Shown here: piece by piece, positions 1,518-15,187 of the stretch
Layout: each line of letters opens with the position of its first letter
Numbering within the stretch: the first letter of the stretch is position 1
From: Propionibacteriaceae bacterium
Lineage (GTDB): Bacteria > Actinomycetota > Actinomycetes > Propionibacteriales > Propionibacteriaceae
Length of the DNA stretch: 15,287 bases
Direction: 5' to 3'
Assembly (NCBI GenBank): GCA_030528545.1
Contig: JAUMYR010000061.1
Coordinates: forward strand, 1 to 15,287
Program-made: the position numbers and the translations under genes
Notes under the pieces: model-generated
Told to the model about the DNA's origin: nothing
Databases searched by the model: none
Seen by the model: the letters and a program-made list of their open reading frames with translations, nothing else

Positions 1518-2396
1518 ATGGCAGCGATCGAGGTGAGAGGGCTCATCAAGAACTTCGGGCGAACGCGCGCCCTCGACGGGCTGGATCTCACGGTCGGGCA
1601 GGGGCAGGTGCACGGCTTCCTCGGTCCCAATGGAGCTGGTAAATCCACCACGATCCGGGTGCTGCTCGGCCTGCTCCGCGCGGATGCGGGCACGGTGCGC
1701 CTGCTCGGCGGCGACCCCTGGGCCGATGCCCCCAGCCTGCATCGCCGCCTCGCCTACGTCCCAGGCGACGTCAGCCTGTGGCCCAACCTGACCGGGGGTG
1801 AGGCCATCGACATCATCGGGGGCGCCAGGGGAGGGATCGACCGGGCCAGAAGAGACGAGCTCATCGAACGCTTCGATCTGGACCCGCGCAAGAAGGGGCG
1901 CTCCTATTCGAAGGGAAATAGGCAGAAAGTCGCGCTGATCGCCGCTCTGGCTGCGGATGTCGAGTTGCTGCTGCTGGACGAGCCGACTTCGGGCCTCGAC
2001 CCGCTTATGGAACGCACCTTCGCGGAGTGCATCAGGAGCGAGCGCGATCGCACGGTGCTGTTGAGCTCCCACATCCTGAGCGAGGTCGAGGCGCTGTGCG
2101 ACCACGTATCGATCATCAAGGCGGGCCGGATCGTCGAAACCGGGAGCCTCGAAGAGCTCCGTCACCTGCACCACACCCGGGTGGCGGCGGAGTTAGAGTC
2201 CGTTCCCGACCTATCGAGGGTTGCGGGAGTGAGCGAGGTTTCCGTGGCCGGTAACCGGATCGAGTTGTCGGTTGCCGCCGAGGCGATGCCCGCAGTGATG
2301 GAACTGCTGGCCTCATCAGGCATCCGTTCGCTGACGAGCGCGCCGCCATCCCTCGAAGAGCTATTCGTTTCCCATTACAGCAGGGCGGGGACATGA
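1518..2396 (+). CDS. ABC exporter ATP-binding protein
   Basis: This 292-residue nucleotide-binding subunit powers export through the permease encoded next. Walker A is GPNGAGKS (36-43) and Walker B is LLLLDEP (150-156). The D-loop is SGLD (158-161) and the switch His is H185 in SSH. The signature is SKGNRQK (131-137) in place of LSGGQ, as in DrrA/tetronasin-type exporters. The Q-loop region reads YVPGDVSLW, with Pro-Gly-Asp where most ATPases have Gln. The C-terminal 80 residues form the extra regulatory domain usual for this exporter group. The ATG at 1518 has GGAGGA (1505-1510) seven bases upstream and lies 3 bp after tetR. The stop overlaps the permease ATG by four bases. It is cytoplasmic and membrane-associated. 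Tetronasin or other lipophilic drugs are plausible substrates by family resemblance only. Confidence 0.92.
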
Positions 2397-3997
2397 CCGG
2401 TTTCGGCGTTGTTTTCGGCCTAGCCTGGCGACGCAGCCGGGCTTTCTATCTATGGTGGCTCCTGGGCCTGGTGTGGCTCATGCCGCTGACGGTGCAGCAA
2501 TACGACCGGATCGTCTGGTCCGGTCCGCACCCCGAGATCATGCTGAACCTGCTCGCGGATAATCCCACGATGAGGGCGCTGCTTGGACCCCCATTCGATC
2601 TGCTGAGCCCGGGTGGATTTACGTTCTGGCGGGTCGGGATCTTCGTCGCGGTGGGAGCCGCGATGATGGCTGGGCTAGGCGTCGTGCGGGCAACGAGGGC
2701 CGATGAGGAGGCGGGACGCTGTGAGCTGATCCGGGCCGGTGCTCTGGCCCGGCATGCTCCGCTCGTGGCCGGGCTCGTGCTCGCACTGCTGGCCTGTGCC
2801 GCGCTGGCCCTACTCGTCGCGGTCTCGATGGTGGCCTTGGGAGAGGCCGTCGCCGGGTCCGTGGCGGCGGGCCTGGGGATTGGGCTGACCGGTGCGGTAT
2901 ATGCCGGTGTGGCAGCTGTCTTGTGTCAGGTCTTCGAGAGTGCGCGCACCGTGCGGGCATGGACTCTCGGGATCTTTCTGGGAGGTTCCTTCCTCGCCCG
3001 GGCGCTGATCGATGGGATGGGTGCCCAGTCCTTCGTCCAGCCGCTGCAATGGGCCGTTCCGCTGCAATGGGCGGCGCTGGTAAGGCCCTACGCGGGTGAG
3101 CGGTGGGAGGTGCTCGTCCTACCCGCCGGGCTGACTCTGGTCCTCACCGGGTTAGCCTTGCTGCTGGAGGACCGGCGCGACCACGGAGCCGGACTGATGC
3201 CCGCCCGGGGTGGGCCCGCCACAGCCGGGCCCTGGATGAGCCGTGGACTAGGGCTGGCGTGGCGCCTGCAACGCCTAGGAATCGTCGGATGGCTCGCCGG
3301 GCTCGGCGTCTCCGCGTTGGGGCTCGGCTACCTTGCCAGAATGATGGAGCAGGTCTTGGCCGAGAACCCCCGTTTCGTGGAGATGATGCGCCTCCTCGGC
3401 GGTGGCTCACAGCAGTTTCGGGAGGCCTACCTGATCTCAATGAGGGGTTTGATGGCAGTGGTGGTCGCCATCTTCGCGGCACAACTGCTTTCCCGTGCGC
3501 GTTTGGAGGAATCCCAGGGCCGCCTCGAACTGTTGCTGTCGACGGCTTTGCCGCGCGCCCGGTTCCTGGGTGGTCATGTGGTGCTGTCCCTGATCGCCTC
3601 CGGCATCGGCTTCCTTGGGGTCGGGATGCTGTTGGCCCTGCCCGAGGCGCTGCGTTCCGGGAAGCTGTCCGAGATCTGGGACAGCCTCGCCGCGGTGGGG
3701 GTGCTCTACGCCGGTGTGGTCCTCATCGTCGGGCTCGTGACTAGCCTGATTGGCTGGGCACCGCGGTGGATGCCCGTGGCCTGGCTGGTCCTGTGCTGGT
3801 CGGTGGTCGCGGTCTGGATCGGACCGCTGTTTTCGCTGCCGGGATGGCTGGTCGAGATGAGCCCTTGGGGCTATCTGCCACAACTGCCTGGGGAAGACAT
3901 GTCCTGGCCCCCGGTGCTGATTCAGACGCTCGCCGCCGTCGGCCTGATCCTCCTGGGATGGGCAGGCTACCGGCGGCGGGACATCCCCGACAGCTGA
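2393..3997 (+). CDS. ABC exporter permease, internally duplicated, about 12 TM
   Basis: This 534-residue protein is almost entirely hydrophobic, with about 12 predicted membrane helices. It is the membrane partner of the ATPase, whose stop codon it overlaps (ATGA). The two halves look like a tandem duplication. [15 protein letters not shown] near residue 5 matches [18 protein letters not shown] near residue 290. [16 protein letters not shown] (about 103-120) matches [18 protein letters not shown] (about 368-387). Each half has six TM segments, so one polypeptide could replace the homodimer of simpler DrrB-type permeases. The same large size is known for Rv1217c/TnrB3-like tetronasin exporter permeases. 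A strong hairpin lies 10 bp after the stop, so the operon ends here. Confidence 0.85.
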
Positions 3998-4006
3998 GCC
4001 TTGGGC

Positions 4007-4058
4007 GGTGACCACGGCCCGGCCGAACCGCGGCTGGCTCTGCCGGGCCGTGGTGACC
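4007..4058 (+). terminator. Strong stem-loop after the ABC exporter operon
   Basis: Bases 4007-4023 (GGTGACCACGGCCCGGC) pair with 4042-4058 (GCCGGGCCGTGGTGACC). This is a 17-bp stem with one mismatch (4010/4055) and an 18-nt loop. It begins 10 bp after the permease stop. There is no T-run, but GC-rich stems of this kind are the usual terminator form in high-GC actinobacteria. Confidence 0.7.
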
Positions 4059-4511
4059 CGCTCGGCTTCGCTCGTGGGGCCACGATGTCACTGCGGCGAT
4101 ATCCGTCGGCGAAATGGTTTGCCCAGGCGCTCCCGTGGGGTGAGGGCCTCCTGGGCCGAGCTAGCGCCTCGACGGTGGCTGTCCAGGGATTTCCCGAGGG
4201 CTCTGGGTCGCGGCCTCCTGGCAGCGGTGGCCGGGGCTGTCCCTGGGGCGATCCTGGGTTCCGCGCTGCCCATGGGATGGGTAGTTCTCCCCGGTGCCCT
4301 CCGCGCAACTGGCCCGGCGCCCGGATCGCCCCATGGGTAAGGTCTCAATCCCAGGCCACCGCTGGCTGGCTGCCAAGAGGGGTGGAGCCCTAGGTGATTT
4401 CCTGGAACGGCCCCGCGGTATTCTCTGGCCCGGCGGGACGGTTCAAAGGCGGCTCTGGGGTGGGCCCGGTGGGCCGAATCAATAGGCCGGATAGTCCGGG
4501 CAATGATGCTT

Positions 4512-4530
4512 GGCAAGGACCAGCCTTGCC
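4512..4530 (+). terminator. Perfect 7-bp hairpin, terminator-like
   Basis: GGCAAGG (4512-4518) and CCTTGCC (4524-4530) form a perfect stem with the 5-nt loop ACCAG, followed by TTGTGG. It could end a short transcript within the intergenic region, or form part of a structured RNA leading into the polysaccharide operon. The T-run is too weak for a firm call. Confidence 0.35.
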
Positions 4531-4721
4531 TTGTGGCCGCAGCGTTGCGAGCGGTTTCAATCGAGACGGCCGCCAGGGCCAAGATATTGTCTGAGTCGCC
4601 GCGAAGGCGCCAAAAAATCGCGGAATCCTTCGCCGTCGTAGGAAACACCGCTAACCACTTTAACATGGACCAGATTAGCGAATCGGGGGTCACCTTCGTC
4701 CTACTGGGGCCGGTGTGAGCC

Positions 4722-4805
4722 GACTCCCCGAAGTGGCCCGTTGCCCTCCTAAGCTGCCGACAGAACGGAGCCGGGAAAACCGGCCTTCACGAGTCTTGGG
4801 GAATC
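4722..4805 (+). promoter_or_regulatory. Structured 5' leader of the polysaccharide operon (possible cis-acting RNA)
   Basis: The arms 4722-4733 (GACTCCCCGAAG) and 4795-4805 (CTTGGGGAATC) pair with one mismatch and one bulge, closing a domain of about 84 nt. Inside it, CCGTT (4738-4742) pairs with AACGG (4764-4768) around a 21-nt loop. GCCGG (4770-4774) pairs with GCCGG's complement at 4780-4784 around GAAAA. The outcome would be a three-way junction ending 14 nt before the ATG. CTCC (4805-4808) can also pair with the GGAG Shine-Dalgarno (4814-4817). It does not match the conserved cores of c-di-GMP-I, c-di-GMP-II, cobalamin, TPP or ydaO riboswitches as I remember them. Pairing was found by eye only. 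Confidence 0.3.
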
Positions 4806-4819
4806 TCCGGGGGGGAGCG

Positions 4820-7030
4820 ATGACAAGAATCGTCTTTGACTATGCGCGTGTCAACAGGCGGGTGCGCCTTTTGGCTATGGTGGCGGCCGCGTCGGTGCTG
4901 GCGATGCCGGTGCAGGCGTTACCGGCTAGCGCCGCAGCGGTACCAGCGGATGTCGCGTTGAACATCCTTGTGCTCGACGATGGTTCGCCCTCTACCGCGG
5001 CGATCAAGGAGCGGCTGTCGGCGGAAGGGCAGCACTACACCGAGGTCGACCTGGCCGCGAGCGGAAGGCAGAACATCACGAGTGAGTTCCTCGTCGATGT
5101 GGATCGTAGAGGCGCCCATGGCAAGTATTCGGGCATCGTCGTGCCCAATGAGGCGCCGCCCCAGCTGTCCGCGCAGGAGCAAGGCATCCTTGAGGCCTAT
5201 GCCGCCGGTTTCAAGGTGCGCACGGTTCTGGCCTACACCTGGGCCCATCCGGGGGTAGGTCTCAACTACGCTGGCGAAACGGGATACACGGGCCCGGTCG
5301 ACGGGATGAAGGCCTCGGTGACCTCTGCGGGTGCCGCCGATGCGTTCAGCTATCTGCGTGGTGTGCCCTTCGACGACATCTCGCCCGATGTCTCAGAATC
5401 CTACGGTTACCTGGCGACCCCGGCACCCGCGACGGCCGAGTCCTCCTTCACTCCGCTGCTCACGGCACCGATCCCCGGTACCCAGGAACAAGGGTCACTG
5501 ATTGGGGTTCACTCTCACAAGGGTCAAGAGCGCCTGGTGCTGACCTTCTCGGCCAACAAATATCAGAACCATTGGCGTACTCTGTCACACGGCGTGGTGC
5601 GCTGGCTGACCCGCGGTATCTCGACGAGCTTCAACAGGAATTACCTCAGCGTTCACATCGACGATGTCTTCGAAAACGACGCGCTGTGGAGCGAGGAAGG
5701 CAACTGCACGATTGGCGACGGCTGTGATTTGACCGCCTACCCGCCGGACGCTCCGGGGGCCACGAGCCGGATGGTTCCCTCCGACGTGGATCGGCTGGTG
5801 AACTGGCAGCGGGCGAGTGGGGTCAAACTGGAGATGGTCTATAACGGTAACGGTGCCGCTCGGCACCGGGCCGAGTTCGGATCTGACCCCCTGGAGGACG
5901 CGCTGCTTGCCCGGAAGCGGGACCTGCGCTGGGTCAACCACACCTGGTCTCATCCCTACCTGGGCTGTATCCAGAACGAGGCGGTCTCACCGTGGCAGTG
6001 CGTCCGGGACGCCGAGGGACGCATCCAATACGCGAGCGGACTCACCATCCACAACGAGATCGTCACCAACTCGTGGTACGCGCTGCGCAAGAAACTTCCA
6101 AACTATGACTATGGGGTGCTGGTCACGGGAGAGCATTCTGGTCTGAAATCGTTGCCCCAGATGGAAAATGACAACCCAAACCTGGCCCGAGTGCTGAACT
6201 ACGATCGAATCGACTGGATCGCCTCAGACGCTTCGCGTGAAAAAGACATCCGCAAGATTGGCCGGGCAACCACCGTGCCTCGCTATCCGATGAACATTTA
6301 CTATAATAACGAAACCAAGGCCCAGGCGGTTGACGAGTATAACTGGATTTATACATCGGAAGCCGATGGCGGCTCAGGTTTGTGTGAGCGTCATCCCGAC
6401 ATCATGACCTGTATCAAGCCATTGGATAAGCCTGCGGGATTCGATTCTTACATTGTTCCGATTGAGGCGAGGATCGCGCTCAGCCATCTGCTCAGCAACG
6501 ACCCGCGTCCCCACTACGCGCATCAGTCAAATCTCGCCGCCGATGGGATTCTCTATCCCGTGCTGGATAGTGTCCTCAGCCAGTATCGGGAGTCCTTCGC
6601 CGATAGTGCGCCGGTAATCAATCCGACGATGCGTGAGGCCGGTATCCAGCTGGAGCGGCAGGCGAAGTGGGCAAAGGCCAAAGGCAAGGTCGTGGGCAAG
6701 GTGAGCGGCTCGAAGGTGAGGTTGCACAATACCTCGGGAAGCAGGGTCACGGTACCGGTGACCATGCCAGCTGGGACGCGTCAGGCGCGCAGTGGCTTCG
6801 GTGAGTCCTATGGTGGGGAGTCCTCCGCCTGGGTGGATTTCCGGCGTGGCCAGCAGCGCACTTATAACCTCGCCGCTGAGTCCGGGTTCGCGACATCGGT
6901 GGTCTGGCCGCCTGTCCTGCCAGTGCAAGAGCAGATTCCGGCCCTTCGTAAAGCCACGGCTCCGGCGGTATTGGATCCCAAGAACGAAGCAGACATTGCG
7001 GTGCTGGAGGCCGCCGATGCAGCCGCCTAG
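4820..7030 (+). CDS. Secreted Agd3-like exopolysaccharide deacetylase (CE18-type)
   Basis: This 736-residue exported protein resembles fungal Agd3, which deacetylates GalNAc in galactosaminogalactan. A signal peptide is clear: Arg-rich start, hydrophobic LLAMVAAASVLAM (17-29), and an ASA-A cleavage site near 39. Residues about 45-265 form an N-terminal alpha/beta and beta-rich part, corresponding to the carbohydrate-binding region of Agd3. The deacetylase core follows. HIDD (279-282) gives the metal and catalytic Asp, NHTWSHP (373-379) the two metal His, then YPMNIYYN (489-496) and PHYAHQSN (564-571) near the active site. Residues about 625-700 look like a C-terminal beta-sandwich. ATG 4820 is chosen because the signal peptide starts there. 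An in-frame GTG at 4715 would add 35 polar residues inside the leader structure. The Shine-Dalgarno GGAG is unusually close (2 nt). It is the first gene of a five-gene operon whose other members are a polymerase-like GT and two glycosidases of polygalactosamine families. Exact substrate is inferred. Confidence 0.8.
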   Translation: MTRIVFDYARVNRRVRLLAMVAAASVLAMPVQALPASAAAVPADVALNILVLDDGSPSTAAIKERLSAEGQHYTEVDLAASGRQNITSEFLVDVDRRGAHGKYSGIVVPNEAPPQLSAQEQGILEAYAAGFKVRTVLAYTWAHPGVGLNYAGETGYTGPVDGMKASVTSAGAADAFSYLRGVPFDDISPDVSESYGYLATPAPATAESSFTPLLTAPIPGTQEQGSLIGVHSHKGQERLVLTFSANKYQNHWRTLSHGVVRWLTRGISTSFNRNYLSVHIDDVFENDALWSEEGNCTIGDGCDLTAYPPDAPGATSRMVPSDVDRLVNWQRASGVKLEMVYNGNGAARHRAEFGSDPLEDALLARKRDLRWVNHTWSHPYLGCIQNEAVSPWQCVRDAEGRIQYASGLTIHNEIVTNSWYALRKKLPNYDYGVLVTGEHSGLKSLPQMENDNPNLARVLNYDRIDWIASDASREKDIRKIGRATTVPRYPMNIYYNNETKAQAVDEYNWIYTSEADGGSGLCERHPDIMTCIKPLDKPAGFDSYIVPIEARIALSHLLSNDPRPHYAHQSNLAADGILYPVLDSVLSQYRESFADSAPVINPTMREAGIQLERQAKWAKAKGKVVGKVSGSKVRLHNTSGSRVTVPVTMPAGTRQARSGFGESYGGESSAWVDFRRGQQRTYNLAAESGFATSVVWPPVLPVQEQIPALRKATAPAVLDPKNEADIAVLEAADAAA

Positions 7031-7050
7031 GTCAGTTAGCGGGAGGAGAC

Positions 7051-8547
7051 ATGCGGATCGCTCTGGTCAACGAGGGAACCTATCCCGTCACGACCGGCGG
7101 CGTGAGCACTTGGTGCCATCGACTCGTCGAGACCCTGTTCGAGCATGAGTTTCATGTGGTGACCCTGGTCGGGCTGGAGAGAGACAATCTCTGGCCCGAT
7201 TTGGGCAATATCCGTAGCGTGACTACGGTTCCCCTGTGGGATCCACCGGCCTTCGGTAGAACGACGGCGGCGCAGCGCCGCGAGGTGGGCGATGCCCTCC
7301 GGCTGCTGTGGCGGGCGGTGCTTCCTGCCGACCGGGAGGACACCAATGTTGACCTTTTACGGGTGGCTCTGAAGCACATCGCCGACTCCGGGCAGGCGAG
7401 ACTGTCTACGGTGTTCGACAGGGTCACCTCGACGCGGGCCATCATGGAGGCCTGGGCGGCCCATATCCGTTCCCGCCCCGAACTGCCTGCGCTTCCCGCC
7501 GGGGTCGCCGCGGAGGTGGCCCGGCACGCTGACCGGGTGCTTGCCGTGATGGACACCGAGATGCCGGAGGTGGATCTGGTCACCGCCACGGCCAACGGCC
7601 CCGCGGGGCTTTTGTCCTTGGTCCCTTTCTGGCGCCGGGGAACGCCCCTAGTGCTGGCCGAACATGGCGTGTACCTGCGGGAGAGGTACCTCGCGCTCGG
7701 CGCGGCGGACTGGCCCTGGCTCACCAGATATGCGCTGCTGGCGTTCCTGCGCGGCATCAGCCAGCTGGTCTACGCCGACGCCGCGGCGCTGGCACCCGTC
7801 AGCGAGTTCAATGCCCGCTGGGAGATCAAGCTGGGAGCCGACCCGGCGATCATTGTCCCGATTCCCAACGCGATCGACCATGCCGAGTTCCCGCTGGTCA
7901 CCTGGGAGCCACCGGTACCCACTGTCTCCTTCGTGGGACGCATTGATCCGTTGAAGGACCTAGACAACCTCGTCACGGCCTTCGCATATGTCCGGCAGGC
8001 GATTCCCGCCGCGGTCCTTCGCCTGTTTGGCCCAACGCCTCAGGGTAACGAGGGATACCGGGAACGTCTCCAGGAGCGGATCAGAACCCTGGGGCTGGAG
8101 GAAGCCGTCATTTTCGAGGGCCCATGCAAGGGGCCCCAACCCGCGATTCTCGCCGGTCATGTCGTGGCTTTGTCGAGCATCTCCGAGGGGATGCCTTTCT
8201 CGGTGATCGAGGCGATGATGAGCGGACGCGCGACCGTGAGCACCGACGTCGGGGGCGTAGCCGAGTGCGTCGGGCGAGACGGTAAGTACGGCATCGTCGT
8301 CCCAGCCCGCGACCCGAAGGCTTTCGCCAGTGCACTGATCTGGTTGCTCACCGAGCATGAGTCCAGGCGTGCCATGGGCAGGGCGGCGCGGGAGCGTGCG
8401 CTGGATCGGTTCAGCATCGAGGTGTTCCGGCACCGTTACCAGACCCTCTACGACTGCCTTGGACCGCGGCGTTCCGCGCCGGGGGAGGCGCAGAGAGACG
8501 AACCCAAGTTTCCTCGTCGGGCCGCTTTGATGGAGGGGATGCTGTGA
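7051..8547 (+). CDS. pelF: PelF-like GT4 glycosyltransferase
   Basis: This 498-residue cytoplasmic glycosyltransferase of family GT4 has the PelF-type N-terminal domain (DUF3492). It opens with RIALVNEGTYPVTTGGVSTW (residues 2-21), the typical glycine-rich acceptor-side loop of PelF. Further PelF hallmarks are LAEHGVYLRERY (202-213), FVGRIDPLKD (294-303) and the EX7E donor-site motif SEGMPFSVIEAM (378-389; Glu379 and Glu387). PelF uses UDP-GalNAc/UDP-GlcNAc to polymerise Pel. The same chemistry would suit an alpha-1,4-galactosamine polymer here. The length matches PelF (about 500). The start is ATG 7051 with GGGAGGAG (7041-7048), 20 bp after the deacetylase gene. The stop overlaps the membrane protein start (GTGA), which suggests the two work as a synthase-export pair, like PelF-PelG or the fused fungal Gtb3. 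Confidence 0.9.
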   Translation: MRIALVNEGTYPVTTGGVSTWCHRLVETLFEHEFHVVTLVGLERDNLWPDLGNIRSVTTVPLWDPPAFGRTTAAQRREVGDALRLLWRAVLPADREDTNVDLLRVALKHIADSGQARLSTVFDRVTSTRAIMEAWAAHIRSRPELPALPAGVAAEVARHADRVLAVMDTEMPEVDLVTATANGPAGLLSLVPFWRRGTPLVLAEHGVYLRERYLALGAADWPWLTRYALLAFLRGISQLVYADAAALAPVSEFNARWEIKLGADPAIIVPIPNAIDHAEFPLVTWEPPVPTVSFVGRIDPLKDLDNLVTAFAYVRQAIPAAVLRLFGPTPQGNEGYRERLQERIRTLGLEEAVIFEGPCKGPQPAILAGHVVALSSISEGMPFSVIEAMMSGRATVSTDVGGVAECVGRDGKYGIVVPARDPKAFASALIWLLTEHESRRAMGRAARERALDRFSIEVFRHRYQTLYDCLGPRRSAPGEAQRDEPKFPRRAALMEGML

Positions 8548-9815
8548 GCGCCGCGCTCTCCCTGCTCACCGATGGGCTATCGCCCACCGACCCGGAGCCC
8601 GATCGCAACGACCCCGTCGATCTTTTCGACGCCGCGGCCCGCCTGGAGTCCTCTGGGGGAGGGGACGCCGCGGCCGAGCGTTTAGGTTATGCCGACGTGT
8701 TCCACCAGGCGGCCGAACAATATCGGACGCCGCAGAGCTGGTCTCCGCCCCCAGTGACGGCCTCCGGCTGGGTCAGTGGGATCTGGCGCGCGGCGACGAT
8801 GCTCGCCGGGGTCGTCATCTGCCTGACCACGCTGAGCGTGGCTCCACAGCCGGTGCAGACCTTCATCGCCGGAGCGAGTTGCTGGCTGGCGGTCCAGGTG
8901 GTCGGTTCGATGCTGTGGTGGGGCATCGGCCGGGGCCAGATCTCCGCCGCCGCCCGGTCCGCCTTGGTCGCCCTGCCGATGATCGCCGTTCCCGCCGCGA
9001 TCATGAGTCTGCTATGGATGGATCCGGTCATCCTGGCGTGGGCCTTGTGGGGCTGGAGCGTGGCGGTCTGTGCTTGCCTGGCGCCCGGAAGATGGCTCGC
9101 TGCGGCGTGTGCGCTCGGTGCGATCCTGTCCGTGACCATGCGTTTCGCCGTGGTGCCGCAGTTTCCGGTTCTTGGAGGGCTGGTGGTGATCGGGGCCGGA
9201 ACATGTGCGGCGGCGCTGATGCTGCTGCGGCGTGGGGCGACCAAGACGATCAAGCCTTTGAGCGTGTATTACCCCGTGAGCTGGGCACTGGCGTTCGTGA
9301 TCTTGCAATTGCTTGGTATCTGGATGGCCTATCTAGCGCTGGAGAACTCCTTCATCGCGGTTGCCATCGGCGCGATCGTGGGTACCGCGGTCAGCGAGGT
9401 CGCCCTCGACCTGTCCGGTTATCTCGCCCGGGTAGCCGTGATGCAGACTTCCCGCTGGTCCTCTGCTCGCTGGCTGGCAGCCGGTGCCGGGTTGCTTGGC
9501 GTTGCGCTGGTCGCGCTGTGCAGTGCAGCCTCCGCGTGGTGGTTCGCTCACTGGTGGGGCGTCCTCGTCACGATGGAACTGGTGAGCTGCGTGTTGCTGA
9601 TATCGGCTATCAGCAGCGGTGTGAGCTACGCGCTAAGACTCGGCTCGGTGTCTCAGGCTACCGCCATGGCCGGGCTCAGCGTGGTCTTGATGCTGGCGGT
9701 CCTCCTCGGACATAGAGTGGAATCGGTCGCGGTTCAGGTGGCGATCGCGGTGGTAGTCGTTGGCGTCGCGGTGGTGATCGCTGCGACGCGGCTGTCCTCG
9801 ACGAAAGCGTGGTGA
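8544..9815 (+). CDS. Polytopic membrane protein, probable polysaccharide exporter (PelG position)
   Basis: This 423-residue protein has a hydrophilic N-terminus of about 78 residues (acidic, Pro/Ala-rich, no recognised domain). About 12 hydrophobic segments follow, roughly at 80-98, 102-130, 139-158, 161-180, 183-201, 207-229, 242-266, 267-290, 308-336, 337-362, 372-391 and 396-418. Its size, helix number and translational coupling to the PelF-like gene (GTGA overlap) match PelG, the 12-TM MOP-type Pel transporter. I do not recognise PelG sequence motifs, and the long soluble N-terminus is unlike PelG. I infer that it moves the nascent chain across the membrane or scaffolds the glycosyltransferase. 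It could also be a separate, uncharacterised family. It ends 1 bp before the spherulin-like gene. Confidence 0.65.
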   Translation: MSAALSLLTDGLSPTDPEPDRNDPVDLFDAAARLESSGGGDAAAERLGYADVFHQAAEQYRTPQSWSPPPVTASGWVSGIWRAATMLAGVVICLTTLSVAPQPVQTFIAGASCWLAVQVVGSMLWWGIGRGQISAAARSALVALPMIAVPAAIMSLLWMDPVILAWALWGWSVAVCACLAPGRWLAAACALGAILSVTMRFAVVPQFPVLGGLVVIGAGTCAAALMLLRRGATKTIKPLSVYYPVSWALAFVILQLLGIWMAYLALENSFIAVAIGAIVGTAVSEVALDLSGYLARVAVMQTSRWSSARWLAAGAGLLGVALVALCSAASAWWFAHWWGVLVTMELVSCVLLISAISSGVSYALRLGSVSQATAMAGLSVVLMLAVLLGHRVESVAVQVAIAVVVVGVAVVIAATRLSSTKAW

Positions 9816-9816
9816 T

Positions 9817-10446
9817 ATGGCTTTAGCGGCACCCTGGTATGTGCATCCGGTGCGAAGAGCGCACTGGGAATGGCTGCGCGGGGCTGACATCGGGATCGCG
9901 GTCCTGAACGTCCAGGACGGGCCTGGGGACCAGATCGAGCCAAGCTACCAGGATGCCGTGTCGGGTTCCTTCCGTCCGAGGGTGCTCGGCTATGTGGATA
10001 CCGCCTATGGGCGCCGATCCGTGCGAGAGGTCTTCCGGGACGCCGAACGCTGGCGCGAGTGGTACGGGGTGAGCGGCATCTTCTTGGACCAGGTCCCGAC
10101 CTCGGCTCTCTGCGGTCACTGGAGGATCGGCTGGGTGCGGGAGTTGAGACGCGAGGGTTTCAGTTTCGTCGCCGCCAACTGTGGGACCGCTCCCGAGGAT
10201 GTGGTGCTGGAGACCGCTGACCTGACTTGCGTGTGCGAGGCGGACTGGCACAGCTATCAGATGTTCCCCCCTCCGGAGCGGTTGCTGAGTCATCCTCCGG
10301 AGCGGCAATGGCATCTGGTGCATTCGGTCCCGGCGTGGGCACCGCTGGACCTGAAGGCCCAGGCAAGAGCGCGCGGAGCGTCCTGGACCTGGGCAACCCG
10401 GGGGGTGCTGCCGAACCCGTGGTCTGTGGGATGGGAAGGGCAATGA
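9817..10446 (+). CDS. Spherulin-4 / Sph3-like glycosidase (GH135-type)
   Basis: This 209-residue TIM-barrel-type protein belongs to the spherulation-specific family 4, whose fungal member Sph3 is a GH135 hydrolase needed for galactosaminogalactan synthesis. Visible family signatures are PWYVHP (6-11), VLNVQDGPGDQ (29-39), VLGYVDTAYGRRS (56-68), WYGVSGIFLDQVP (82-94), AANCGT (119-124) and CEADWHSY (140-147), ending in LPNPW (198-202). Asp91 and Glu141 match the conserved catalytic acids of the family. The residue after Asp91 is Gln92, where Sph3 has a second acid (D-E pair, as I recall). No signal peptide or anchor is visible, and no upstream in-frame start would add one, so it appears cytoplasmic, unlike Sph3. 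The length is short but complete. It starts 1 bp after the membrane protein and overlaps the next gene (ATGA). Confidence 0.82.
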   Translation: MALAAPWYVHPVRRAHWEWLRGADIGIAVLNVQDGPGDQIEPSYQDAVSGSFRPRVLGYVDTAYGRRSVREVFRDAERWREWYGVSGIFLDQVPTSALCGHWRIGWVRELRREGFSFVAANCGTAPEDVVLETADLTCVCEADWHSYQMFPPPERLLSHPPERQWHLVHSVPAWAPLDLKAQARARGASWTWATRGVLPNPWSVGWEGQ

Positions 10447-11405
10447 GGGTCAGATATGCCTTATTCATTCTGCTCCTGGCAGGTTGTGCCGGACCCTCCG
10501 GGATCGCACCTGCCCCGTCGCCGACGCGCACCGTATCGGTGACGCCGGAGGTGGGTATCACCTCCTCACCGCCCACTGCTTCCACCGCAGCCAGCCCGGC
10601 ACCTCCTTCCGGAGCAGCGCCCAAGCCGGTTGAGCAGCCACCGCCAGCCACCGCAGATGCCCCGCCCCCGCCGGAAGCGACCCCACGGCAGGCGCCCGGG
10701 AATACCCCGGCGGACCAGCCGCCGTCTGGGGCCTCGTGGCAGGTTCAATACACGGGACCGCTCACGACAGCCGGGGCCCGGATCGTGGACATCGACGGTG
10801 CCGACTCTTCTAAGGAAGTGGTCTCTCAGATCCGTTCCGCTGGAGGGTATGCGGTGTGCTACTTCAACGCCGGAGCTTTCGAAGACTGGCGCTCGGATGC
10901 CTCCCGGTATCCGGCTCAACTCCTCGGCCGGAGCATGGCGGGCTGGCCACGGGAACGATGGGTGGACATCCGTCGGCTGGACGAGCTGATGCCCATCCTC
11001 GAACAGCGCATGGATCTATGCCGTAGCAAGGGTTTCCAGGCCATCGATCCCGATAACGTTGACGGCTGGGCCCACGACACCGGATTCGACCTGACCCGGA
11101 CGGATTCCATCCGGCTGGTGCGCGCGCTGGCTGAAGCCGCGCATGCCCGGGGGCTGGCGATCGGGCTCAAGAACAGCATCGAGATCATCGGGGAGGTCGT
11201 AGACACCGTCGATTTCGCGGTCAACGAGCAGTGCCTCGCACATGGTGAGTGCGGCGCTTACCAGCCCTTCCTGGACCGGGGCAAAGCGGTGTTGCACGTG
11301 GAATACGAGGGTAGCGAGGAGACCGTGTGCCGGGCGCGTCCGGAAGGTTTCAGCACCGTCATCAAAGACCAGGCTCTGGGCGCCGAACGGGTCGGTTGTC
11401 CCTGA
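10443..11405 (+). CDS. Lipoprotein endo-alpha-1,4-polygalactosaminidase (GH114, Ega3-like)
   Basis: This 320-residue surface lipoprotein has the lipobox LLAGC with Cys15. A low-complexity Pro/Ala/Ser/Thr linker (about 16-98) would span the cell wall. The GH114 barrel follows (about 99-318). Motifs are IVDIDGAD (114-121), YAVCYFNAGAFEDWRSDA (136-153), WVDIR (173-177), GFQAIDPDNVDGW (197-209), GLAIGLKN (237-244) and FAVNEQC (258-264). Family members cleave alpha-1,4-linked galactosamine, and the fungal member Ega3 is encoded in the galactosaminogalactan cluster. The motif usually reads GVEPDNVDGY, so Asp202 replaces the customary Glu. ATG 10443 is chosen because the lipoprotein signal starts there and overlaps the previous stop. 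An in-frame GTG at 10227 lies inside the spherulin gene and would bury the signal. It is the last gene of the operon and is convergent with aminopeptidase P. Confidence 0.88.
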   Translation: MRVRYALFILLLAGCAGPSGIAPAPSPTRTVSVTPEVGITSSPPTASTAASPAPPSGAAPKPVEQPPPATADAPPPPEATPRQAPGNTPADQPPSGASWQVQYTGPLTTAGARIVDIDGADSSKEVVSQIRSAGGYAVCYFNAGAFEDWRSDASRYPAQLLGRSMAGWPRERWVDIRRLDELMPILEQRMDLCRSKGFQAIDPDNVDGWAHDTGFDLTRTDSIRLVRALAEAAHARGLAIGLKNSIEIIGEVVDTVDFAVNEQCLAHGECGAYQPFLDRGKAVLHVEYEGSEETVCRARPEGFSTVIKDQALGAERVGCP

Positions 11406-11430
11406 TCGGGCCGCAGCCTGGGAACCTTCC

Positions 11431-12888
11431 CTAGCGGGACCAGATACCGCTGATCCAGGCTTCGACCTCGTCGGGCCTGCGGGGCAGCATCGCGGACAGG
11501 TTCTCGTTGCCCTGTTCGGTGATGAGGATGTCGTCCTCGATGCGGACGCCGATGCCGCGGAGCCGCTCGGGGACCATGAGATCGGTTGATTTGAAGTACA
11601 GGCCGGGCTCGACCGTGATGATCATGCCGGGGGCGAGCACTCCGTCGCGGTAGTTCTCTTGCCGGGCCTGAGCGCAGTCGTGCACATCGATGCCGAGATG
11701 ATGGCTGGTGCCGTGCACCATCCACCGCCGGTGGAATCCCCCCTCGCTTGATAGGGACTCTTCCGCGCTGCCGGGCAGCAGTCCGAGAGAGGCCAGGTAG
11801 CCGGCGATCACCGCGATCGCCGCCTCGTGCACTTGTTTGAAAGTCACACCGGCCCGGGCGGCCTTGATCCCGGCCTCCTGGGCCGCGAGTACCACCTCAT
11901 AGACCTCGCGCTGGTCGGCGGAGTAACGCCCGCTGACCGGCAGCGTTCGGGTGATGTCGGCGGTGTAGAGGGAATTGACCTCGACGCCTGCATCTAGCAG
12001 CAGCAGGTCACCCGGACGCAGGTTGCCGTCGTTGCGGATCCAGTGCAGGGTATTGGCATGGTCTCCGCTCGCGGCGATGGTGTCATAGCCGACGGCGTTG
12101 CCGAGGTGGCGGGCGTGCAGGCCGAAGATGCCCTCGACCCAGCGCTCACCGCGACCCCTTTTCACCGCTTCCGGCAGGTCGGCTACCACCGCTTCGAAAC
12201 CGACCGCCGTGGCCGCGCAGGCTGAGCGCATCTCGTCGATCTCGAAAGCGTCCTTGATGAGCCGGGCCTCGCTCAGCGCGACCTCTAGCTCGTGGTCGGC
12301 CTCATCGTGGGAGCCGGAGCGAACCTCGTTGACCTGGGCGGTGATGGCTGGGTCGGCCTCGGCGAGGACACGGATCGGTGCCCCCTGATCTAACTCGGCG
12401 CCGAAAGAGTCGATGTGGCGGCACTCCAGCCCGGTCAGCGCGGCCATCTCCTCAAGGGATTCGCGCTGCCCGACCCACATCTCCCCATATCGGGCGGAGG
12501 CATAGAACTCGGGATCGGTGCGTGGAGCGCGCGGTTTGAAGTACAGCACGGATTCACCCGAGGAGTGCAGCACCAAGACCGAATCGGGTTCCCGGTCCTC
12601 GCCCAGGCCGGACAGGTGGGCGAAAGCGGAATGGGGCCGGAACCGGTAGTCGGTGTCGTTTGAGCGGACCTTATAGGGCCCAGCCGGGATCACCAGGGTT
12701 TCGCCGGGGAAGAGAGCGGCTATCGCGGCCCGGCGGGCTGGCGTCCAGGAGGCGGCGGGCAAGGGGTCGGGCAGAGCGGACGGATAGGGCGCCCAGTCGC
12801 CGACGATAAACTCACGAAAAGCCGCCGAGAATGGGGTCTGGCGATTCGGGACTTCTGGCTGGGCCGGGGTGCTCGGGGTCTCGCTCAT
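11431..12888 (-). CDS. pepP: Xaa-Pro aminopeptidase (aminopeptidase P, M24B)
   Basis: This cytoplasmic metallopeptidase removes an N-terminal residue that precedes proline. It has the two-domain layout of aminopeptidase P: an N-terminal domain (about 25-200, containing GPYKVRSNDTDYRFR) and a pita-bread catalytic domain (about 215-475). All five dinuclear-metal ligands are visible: Asp299 and Asp311 in LDAGVEVNSLYTADITR, His396 in HGTSHHLG, Glu427 in TVEPGLYF and Glu451 in RIEDD. Length is 485 residues, normal for the family. I choose ATG 12888 (MSETPSTP), since related actinobacterial proteins begin similarly. In-frame GTG 12927 and ATG 12918 would add 13 or 10 unconserved residues. The gene is convergent with the GH114 gene (25-bp gap) and divergent from the zinc-ribbon gene, so it stands alone as a housekeeping gene. 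Confidence 0.93.
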   Translation of the reverse strand: MSETPSTPAQPEVPNRQTPFSAAFREFIVGDWAPYPSALPDPLPAASWTPARRAAIAALFPGETLVIPAGPYKVRSNDTDYRFRPHSAFAHLSGLGEDREPDSVLVLHSSGESVLYFKPRAPRTDPEFYASARYGEMWVGQRESLEEMAALTGLECRHIDSFGAELDQGAPIRVLAEADPAITAQVNEVRSGSHDEADHELEVALSEARLIKDAFEIDEMRSACAATAVGFEAVVADLPEAVKRGRGERWVEGIFGLHARHLGNAVGYDTIAASGDHANTLHWIRNDGNLRPGDLLLLDAGVEVNSLYTADITRTLPVSGRYSADQREVYEVVLAAQEAGIKAARAGVTFKQVHEAAIAVIAGYLASLGLLPGSAEESLSSEGGFHRRWMVHGTSHHLGIDVHDCAQARQENYRDGVLAPGMIITVEPGLYFKSTDLMVPERLRGIGVRIEDDILITEQGNENLSAMLPRRPDEVEAWISGIWSR

Positions 12889-12989
12889 GAGCCGACAGCC
12901 TACCTCGCCGGGCGCCATGACTGACACGCCACCACCTTGTCGGGGATCATCCGAGCGTGGGAGGGGTTTGCCTTGTACGCTTCAGTAAT

Positions 12990-13730
12990 ATGCTCGCCGA
13001 ACCAAGCGCCCAGCGACGCCTTCTTGACCTTGCCGCGGTCGATACCGAGATCGCCCAGCTAACGCACCGGCGTAAGACGCTGCCGGTGCACACCGAAATC
13101 GCCCGGCTCGCCGAGGCCCGGAAACGGGTTACCGAGCGGCTGGTGGCGGCGACGACTCAGGTCAGCGACGCCCAATACCAGCTCGACAAGCTGGAGCGTG
13201 AGATCGAGCCGATCCGGATAAGGATTGAGCGCGACCAGGAGAGGCTCGACAAGGGAAGCGTGAGCGACCCCAAGGTCGTTGAGCGTCTGGTGGCGGAGGT
13301 GGCCAAGATGCGCCAGCGGCTGAGCGATCTCGAAGAGGTCCAGCTCGAAGCCATGCAGGCGGTTGAGGATGCCACGGCGCGCCAGTCGGAGATCCAGGCG
13401 AAGCGGGACTCGGGAGACGTCGAGCTGCGGGAACTGGTCGTCCAGCGTGACCGTGCCGTAGCGAAGCTAGACGCTGAGATCGCCGACCGCGGTGCCGAGC
13501 GGGTGATCGTGGCAGGGGAGATCCCCGCCGATCTACTGGCCGCCTACGACAAGTCTTTCCAGAGGACCGGGCTAGGCGCCGCCAGGCTGCATCAGGGACG
13601 ATGCAGCGGCTGCGGGCTGGAGCTGAACCCGGCTGAGTTACGCAGGCTCCAAGGGGTACTCAGCAACGAGGTCCTCCGATGCGAGGAGTGCGGGCGTATC
13701 CTGATCCGCACCGCTGAATCGGGTGTGTGA
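12990..13730 (+). CDS. Coiled-coil zinc-ribbon protein (C4-type, CT398/DUF164-like)
   Basis: This 246-residue protein consists of a long antiparallel coiled-coil hairpin (about residues 8-175, Leu/Arg/Glu heptads) and a C-terminal zinc ribbon. Its four Cys are 205, 208 (CSGCG) and 231, 234 (CEECG). This is the actinobacterial 'C4-type zinc ribbon domain-containing protein' often annotated as a possible nucleic-acid-binding protein. Its role is not established. A longer frame opens at GTG 12957, but ATG 12990 is preferred because homologues begin with a short lead into QRRLLDLAAVD. ATG 12990 has no Shine-Dalgarno. A possible -10 TACGCT (12976-12981) would place the transcript start at about the ATG, so it may be leaderless. 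The stop overlaps the RNase gene start (TGATG), which points to a joint role or co-expression in RNA metabolism. Confidence 0.85.
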   Translation: MLAEPSAQRRLLDLAAVDTEIAQLTHRRKTLPVHTEIARLAEARKRVTERLVAATTQVSDAQYQLDKLEREIEPIRIRIERDQERLDKGSVSDPKVVERLVAEVAKMRQRLSDLEEVQLEAMQAVEDATARQSEIQAKRDSGDVELRELVVQRDRAVAKLDAEIADRGAERVIVAGEIPADLLAAYDKSFQRTGLGAARLHQGRCSGCGLELNPAELRRLQGVLSNEVLRCEECGRILIRTAESGV

Positions 13731-15187
13731 TGCCCAAGACCTGGTTCCGCACCCGGGAGGAACTGCCGAGGGACATCGCCGCGAGGCTGGCTGAACTGCA
13801 ACGCGAACTCGGAGTCCCCGGGGAGTTCTCGGCCCAGGTGCGCTCGGAGGCTGAGGCCCTCGCGCGTGGTGGGGCGAGTTGTGCGGGCCACCGTGACCTG
13901 ACCGGTGTGCCTTTCGTCACGATCGACCCGGCGGCATCGACTGACCTCGACCAGGCCGTGCATATCGAGGCTGACGGCAATGGCTACCTGGTCAGTTACG
14001 CGATCGCCGATGTCGGGGCGTGGATACCGCCGGGAAGCCAACTCGACCAGGAGGTCCGGCGCCGGGGACAGACCTACTACCTGCCCTCCGGACGGGTGCC
14101 GCTGCATCCGCCGGTCTTGAGCGAGGCCGCGGCCTCCTTGCTGGCCGATGGGGCACAGCGTCCGGCGATGGTGTGGCGGATGCGCCTAGACCGGGAGGGA
14201 GAACTTACCGGCATTGAGTTGCACCGGGCGATGGTTCGCAGCCGCGCCAAGCTCAGCTATCAGCAGGTGCAGCGCGACCTCGATGCCGGAACGGCCCCAG
14301 AACCGTTGCGGCTGCTTCGGGAGGTCGGGCTGTTGCGTCAGGGATTGGAGTCGGCTCGGGGCGGAGTCAGCCTCAACCTTCCCCAGCAGGAGGTGGAGGC
14401 CACCGGTCACGGGTGGCGACTGACCTATCGCCGGGTGCTGCCGGTGGAAGACTGGAACGCCCAGATCTCACTGCTGACCGGACACGCGGCCGCCACCCTC
14501 ATGCTGGGGGCAGGCACGGGGGTGTTGAGGACGCTGCCTTCGGCCGAGGAGCCTGGCATCAGGCGGTTGCGCCGGATCGCTCGCTCCCTGCGAATCTTGT
14601 GGGAGCCCGGTGTGGGCTACCCGGAGTTCGTCCGGTCACTGGACCCGGACGAGCCCCGCCACCTCGCGATGATGGCGGCCTGTGTCACGCTGTTCCGCGG
14701 CGCGGCCTATACGGTGCTCACTGGCTCCATCGCCCCGGGGGCGGTGAGTCACGGAGCCCTGGCCATGTCCTATGCGCACGCGACCGCGCCGCTGCGGCGT
14801 TTGGTGGACCGCTATGTGCTGGAGGTGTGCCATTCGGTGGCGAACGGCGAAGAGGTGCCGGAATGGGCGGCATCGGCGTTGCCGGACCTGCCGGAGGCCA
14901 TGGCGGTGAGCGAGCAGCGGGCGAAGAAGCTGGAGCGGGCCGTGATCGACCTGACCGAGGTCTGGTTGCTGCGGGAAAGGGTCGGTGAAGAGTTCGAGGC
15001 GGTGGCCACACACGTGGATACCGGACGCGGGGGAGCCGAGGTGTACCTGTCCGACCCCGCGGTCGCGGCCGTCGCCTTCGGGGTTCCCGGGGACGCGCTG
15101 GGCAGCCGGATTAGCGTCCGGGCCAGCAGCGCCGATGTGGCGAGGGCTCGGGTCCGCTTCGACTACGTCGGCCAGATTGAGGGTTAG
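13730..15187 (+). CDS. RNB-domain exoribonuclease, RNase II/R family, short actinobacterial form
   Basis: This 485-residue cytoplasmic 3'-5' exoribonuclease-like protein has an RNB core spanning about 60-400. The active-site segment TIDPAASTDLDQAV (64-77) supplies Asp66, Asp72 and Asp74. The fourth acid of E. coli RNase II (Asp210) is Gln75 here, which as I recall is usual in the actinobacterial branch. Downstream are YAIADVGAWI (90-99), YYLPSGRVPLHPPVLSE and the conserved YAHATAPLRRLVDRY (from 348). There is no clear N-terminal cold-shock pair and only a remnant of a C-terminal S1-like domain, so it is shorter than E. coli RNase II (644 residues). The start may be ATG 13730 (TGATG overlap) or GTG 13727. 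The stop codon lies in a candidate rnpB promoter. Confidence 0.9.
   Translation: MPKTWFRTREELPRDIAARLAELQRELGVPGEFSAQVRSEAEALARGGASCAGHRDLTGVPFVTIDPAASTDLDQAVHIEADGNGYLVSYAIADVGAWIPPGSQLDQEVRRRGQTYYLPSGRVPLHPPVLSEAAASLLADGAQRPAMVWRMRLDREGELTGIELHRAMVRSRAKLSYQQVQRDLDAGTAPEPLRLLREVGLLRQGLESARGGVSLNLPQQEVEATGHGWRLTYRRVLPVEDWNAQISLLTGHAAATLMLGAGTGVLRTLPSAEEPGIRRLRRIARSLRILWEPGVGYPEFVRSLDPDEPRHLAMMAACVTLFRGAAYTVLTGSIAPGAVSHGALAMSYAHATAPLRRLVDRYVLEVCHSVANGEEVPEWAASALPDLPEAMAVSEQRAKKLERAVIDLTEVWLLRERVGEEFEAVATHVDTGRGGAEVYLSDPAVAAVAFGVPGDALGSRISVRASSADVARARVRFDYVGQIEG

Follow-up and report, generated by a model that had tools for sequence, protein, structure and literature searches.

A five-gene operon of the bacterial agd3 kind in a Propionibacteriaceae bacterium, and its probable role in the synthesis of a galactosamine-rich polymer

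The locus and its genes

The DNA analyzed here, positions 1 to 15,287 of contig JAUMYR010000061.1 (a stretch of 15,287 nucleotides, referred to below as the ‘window’), derives from a Propionibacteriaceae bacterium (GenBank assembly GCA_030528545.1) and carries five adjoining genes on its forward strand, between positions 4820 and 11405. In order, these encode an Agd3-like (CE18/CBM87-type) secreted polysaccharide deacetylase, a PelF-type GT4 glycosyltransferase, a multi-spanning membrane protein, a GH135/Spherulin-4-type hydrolase and a GH114 endo-galactosaminidase-type lipoprotein; successive genes are separated by a 20-nt gap, a 4-nt overlap, a 1-nt gap and a second 4-nt overlap. An original prediction, made from the sequence of the window, had described such a linked set and had interpreted it as a bacterial relative of the fungal galactosaminogalactan (GAG) cluster and of Pel systems, in which the deacetylase and the hydrolases are separate proteins. 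The reading frames lie at the place and on the strand that it gave, and the families, gene order and conservation described below bear out both the set and this general interpretation.

The deacetylase gene (4820..7030) encodes 736 residues when read from ATG 4820. Its open reading frame (ORF) opens mechanically at GTG 4715, a less likely start; the ATG is preferred because it is preceded by GGGGGGAGCG and opens a stretch that resembles a signal peptide. The closest named relative, 80% identical, is from a Propionibacteriaceae bacterium, and a copy on another contig is 98% identical. Kinship with Agd3, set beforehand as a test of the original prediction, was confirmed through comparison of profiles and of structures. 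All four catalytic motifs of CE18 (CM1-CM4: Asp-Asp, HxxxH, Arg and His) are present, with D316-D317, R523 and H603 aligned to D377-D378, R613 and H668 of Agd3 (using a chain offset of 122, derived by hand from the alignment) and with the HxxxH motif formed by H409/H413. Across the 26 rows of the window’s own group these residues are invariant, save H413, retained by at least 90% of the rows; the position of Agd3 M666 is occupied by Tyr. The predicted structure shows the three-domain fold of CE18, comprising an N-terminal CBM87-like domain, a CE barrel and a beta-rich C-terminal domain.

Several further observations concern this gene and its relatives. The 3' half of the gene (window block 6001-7000) drops to a GC content of 0.58, whereas the remaining 1-kb blocks of the window range over 0.63-0.69. 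One protein of 972 residues (P0047) aligns with 84% of the deacetylase query and, by precomputed annotation, also contains a GH114 domain; it appears to be a naturally fused protein. Two relatives appear to be broken: one (genome G444, contig C5:93170-94977) survives as four separate matched pieces, two of which contain an internal stop, and the other (genome G084, contig C18:66243-66545) as a short matching piece interrupted by four stops. On a plasmid of Deinococcus aquaticus (L083:8704-13269), two different Agd3-like genes stand adjacent in one operon, followed by a GH114 gene and a TM1410/GH191-like gene.

The synthase pair

The glycosyltransferase (7051..8547; 498 residues, DUF3492 plus Glycos_transf_1) scores 146.5 bits against the NCBIfam equivalog model for PelF (NF038011), passing its cut-off of 100, and is 25% identical to a Pseudoalteromonas PelF. 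The membrane protein that follows it (8544..9815) occupies the place of PelG. It has 11 predicted long helices, of which one is doubled in length, corresponding to about 12 spans, and a conserved N-terminal segment precedes the first of these. Its predicted fold is that of the MATE/MOP superfamily, and a MOP fold common to this protein and PelG is possible. At the level of sequence, profile searches assigned it no family, none of 20 members of the membrane-protein group matched PelG (PF16933) at E 1, and hhalign returned a probability of 0.1% against one PelG. A weak, sub-cut-off PelG match in the genome of one related locus (L009; L081) was rejected as the operon’s membrane protein, as it fails to match the membrane-protein profile. 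Separately, on a plasmid of Pseudoalteromonas sp. THAF3 (L139:8884-12581) a GH114 gene lies convergent to the pelG gene of a classical pel operon, 12 nt away.

The two hydrolases

The fourth gene (9817..10446) encodes 209 residues that match Spherulin4 (PF12138) with 84.3 bits, against a cut-off of 30.2. The Asp of its FLDQ motif and the Glu of its VCEA motif align with the catalytic residues of fungal Sph3 and are kept in all 59 copies compared, the window’s included; the residue after the catalytic Asp is Gln, Arg or Cys in these copies and Glu in Sph3. Fungal Sph3 is described as membrane-bound, acting while the polymer leaves Gtb3 (PMC12054363). Such an anchored, extracytoplasmic placement was not found here: the window protein has neither a signal peptide nor a transmembrane segment and is predicted to be cytoplasmic. 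No recognizable signal peptide was seen, by eye, in any of the 59 copies, and in 57 of them no hydrophobic stretch occurs in the sequence that precedes the domain, taken to a maximum of 60 residues (in the two exceptions the stretch precedes the apparent start codon). In 56 copies a start codon is found no more than 15 codons from the edge of the domain; of the others, L036 and L069 have an in-frame stop five codons upstream, and for L068 the start was not assigned.

The last gene (10443..11405) encodes a 320-residue lipoprotein (lipobox LAGC) that matches the GH114 family (PF03537) with 254 bits, against a cut-off of 27. It aligns to fungal Ega3 with E 7e-52, and the catalytic Asp and Glu are kept in the motifs DPDNVD and NEQC. 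Among 54 operon GH114 proteins, 49 display a lipobox-like motif, and regular expressions recognized the Asp motif in 51 and the Glu motif in 50.

Conservation and surroundings

A scan of genome contigs for relatives of the deacetylase yielded 510 stretches, of which the best 80 loci were retained; these are the closest relatives, mostly from Streptomyces. Sixty-two of them reach at least 9.5 kb downstream (‘long loci’), the other 18 being shorter. The PelF-type, membrane-protein, GH135 and GH114 genes are all kept, in order, in 43 of the 62 long loci, which completes the five genes with the deacetylase, as the original prediction required of related genomes; chance association is excluded because the order is conserved. 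Over all 80 loci, 44 are complete, 14 are without a detected GH114, 6 are without a detected GH135 and 16 retain less. One of the long loci (L059) was scored by the count as being without its last three genes, yet all five are present in a separate listing of that locus. The family is patchy: of 147 genomes from the bacterial family to which Propioniciclava soli belongs, 4 gave a match (one of them a short piece with stops), as did 9 of 296 from its phylum.

The most constant genes in the long loci are those for the PelF-type glycosyltransferase (61 of 62) and the membrane protein (60 of 62). This bears on the notion of a catabolic gene set that degrades the GAG or Pel of neighboring organisms, a role to which two hydrolases and a deacetylase would be suited. 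A synthase and a MOP-fold protein as the most constant parts, together with the lack of any sugar uptake gene among the five, make that role very improbable.

Two forms of the operon were distinguished by the distance between the membrane-protein and GH135 matches. Among the 58 loci that carry the two, this distance measures 6-60 nt in 23 and 2,689-3,043 nt in 35, with no intermediate values. In the long-spacing loci that were read (L009, L010, L033 and L089), the additional DNA contains genes for a LegB-like 4,6-dehydratase, a nucleotidyltransferase and a short-chain dehydrogenase/reductase (SDR). By annotation the same trio is also found in Deinococcus aquaticus and D. ficus; the window operon is without it.

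Upstream of the operon (1518-3997) lie genes for a DrrA-like ATP-binding cassette (ABC) ATPase and for a 534-residue protein without convincing family match, probably the permease of that ATPase. They were rejected as part of the operon: the presumed permease occurs in no other of the 80 loci and the ATPase in 3, and a gap of more than 700 nt precedes the deacetylase gene. A promoter and terminator scan of positions 3900-11600 gave no signal above shuffled sequence, and the window contains no tRNA.

A copy between insertion sequences

In Kocuria rosea RP1, the mobilizable plasmid NZ_CP126484.1 (L082:7572-16900) carries the five operon genes as the only annotated genes between an inverted pair of insertion sequence (IS) elements of the IS5 family, a composite-transposon layout. 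The inverted arms were first computed as 944 nt, 100% complementary; reading of their ends gave a 940-nt element with matching end repeats, and the two copies agree at all 940 nt. The flanking bases are ACT outside and ACT inside the left copy, and ACC inside and ACT outside the right copy. The outer ACT pair is what a 3-bp target duplication around the whole unit would leave, a weak sign at three bases, and insertion of the left copy alone fits equally. Megablast found no further full copy of the element in 72,556 plasmid records, and no report of an IS-bracketed operon appears among the literature matches listed.

Comparison with known systems and the origin of the fungal cluster

Bacterial agd3 operons were published by Bamford et al. 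2020 (PMC7229062), and as described there they contain an Agd3-like deacetylase, a cytoplasmic glycosyltransferase, a multi-spanning membrane protein and a GH114 protein, joined in some Actinobacteria by spherulin-4. The window shows no essential difference from that description, and the novelty first attached to its gene set does not stand. The Burkholderia members are named ‘Agd3-related carbohydrate deacetylase’ by NCBI; none of the titles among the literature matches listed describes experimental work on such an operon from an actinobacterium.

The proposal that the locus mirrors the fungal GAG cluster (uge3, sph3, ega3, agd3 and gtb3) holds in part. Four enzyme functions, the CE18 fold, GH135 and GH114 are common to both. 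In contrast to the fungal cluster, the 10 window ORFs that were scanned for families (spanning 1518-15187, with ORFs in 1-1517 outside the scan) include no uge3, the synthase is split into a PelF-type glycosyltransferase and a separate MOP protein (with the Gtb3 sequence outside the comparison), the GH135 protein is unanchored and the GH114 protein is a lipoprotein. Pel systems (pelABCDEFG, or pelDEADAFG in Gram-positive bacteria; PMC7112168) likewise pair a PelF-type GT4 with a multi-spanning membrane partner, but the scanned ORFs contain no match to PelD, PelA or PelG, the deacetylase is of CE18 type, and the hydrolases are GH135 and GH114 where Pel uses GH166.

Transfer had been raised by Lee et al. 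2016 (PMC4817252), and the original prediction considered this lineage a possible donor of the fungal cluster, or a relative. The same four enzyme types are clustered in both, the Agd3 fold is shared, the cluster can reside on mobile DNA, and a placement of fungal Agd3 as sister of the 26-row window group survives an approximately unbiased (AU) test (p 0.34). However, fungal Agd3 (PDB 6nwz) scores 202.9 bits against a 21-row profile (A3: Burkholderia, Trinickia, one acidobacterial and two Deinococcus proteins, and others) and 38.7 bits against the 26-row window-group profile. In the Agd3 tree (the 47 rows of both profiles and a single fungal row on a long branch), the window group splits from that fungal row at 100/100, and the two Deinococcus rows adjoin the group at 88/93. 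For GH114, Ega3 is 49.1% identical to a Burkholderia protein, 48.6% to the best operon protein and 41% to that of the window; a further actinobacterial GH114, at 50.5%, is about as close as the first two.

A GH114 tree did place the window, L001 and L002 beside the fungal block. Its input excluded domains shorter than 180 residues, thinned 55 operon rows to 30 and used 25 of 56 thinned fungal rows; its ‘non-operon’ label is unsafe, those loci having flanks of only about 1.5 kb. The tree, which comes from a short search with a midpoint root and has several long rows, is not relied on because its set left out other phyla and the direct identities with added Proteobacteria show no special closeness. 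Since fungal Agd3 is nearer the other profile and Ega3 has no special closeness to the window GH114, the sequences do not favor the window lineage as donor; that it is the donor, or the sister of the donor, appears improbable.

Proposed function

The locus is probably an operon for a synthase-type exopolysaccharide, one of the bacterial agd3 kind already published, by which a sticky galactosamine-rich polymer, similar to that of mould biofilms, would be built, exported, deacetylated and trimmed. Gene content and order, conservation, catalytic residues, predicted folds and signals are observed directly, and from these we infer a substrate and linkage, a sugar supply, a cytoplasmic role for GH135 and a function in biofilm formation or adhesion. 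The PelF-type enzyme would polymerize an N-acetylhexosamine, probably N-acetylgalactosamine (GalNAc), from a uridine diphosphate (UDP)-sugar that may be supplied by a housekeeping epimerase encoded elsewhere, and the MOP-fold protein would carry the chain across the membrane. Outside the cell, the Agd3-like enzyme would strip some N-acetyl groups to leave a cationic polymer, whose deacetylated stretches the GH114 lipoprotein may trim. The GH135 enzyme, which is without an export signal, would cut the acetylated chain on the cytoplasmic side, at the face of the synthase or close to it.

Several results weigh against this assignment. The Pfam model Agd3_CE (PF25115) meets the deacetylase at E 8e-4 and 18.9 bits, below its cut-off of 27.6, a score despite which the kinship with Agd3 is confirmed. 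GH114 was not detected in 10 of the 62 long loci and GH135 in 6, with 3 retaining less, and therefore neither hydrolase is strictly required. The scanned ORFs offer no uge3-type epimerase and no PelA, PelD or PelG. Finally, relatives of all three Deinococcus trio genes occur in 37 of the 80 loci, a hint that some relatives use another N-acetylhexosamine. Together with the distance of the deacetylase sequence from fungal Agd3, this trio suggests that the product might be a different N-acetylhexosamine polymer or a wall glycan, for example one containing a 6-deoxy sugar, instead of a GalNAc polymer. That alternative is unlikely for the window: its copy does not have these three genes, and those GH114 and GH135 proteins characterized to date, as covered in PMC12054363, act on galactosamine (GalN)/GalNAc polymers, with the catalytic Asp and Glu of both families kept here.

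A broader proposal, that the five genes form a transposable, self-contained module among Actinobacteria, with a cytoplasmic GH135 acting at the inner face of the PelF and MOP-fold synthase and with two chemical types (one of GalNAc, as in the window, the other of its own 6-deoxy N-acetylhexosamine made through the LegB-like trio), is tentative, and as a whole is rather doubtful.

Significance

The locus is mainly a well-supported new example of a published bacterial operon type. A GH135 without signal, the two operon types and the transposon-bracketed copy were not found in print, and these add modestly to its interest. The operon lends support to the idea that fungi and many bacteria have partly deacetylated galactosamine polymers in common, and it offers a minimal five-gene set for testing in a non-pathogenic host; with a concrete mobile copy and the split into two types, both the origin of these polymers and their chemistry become open to test.
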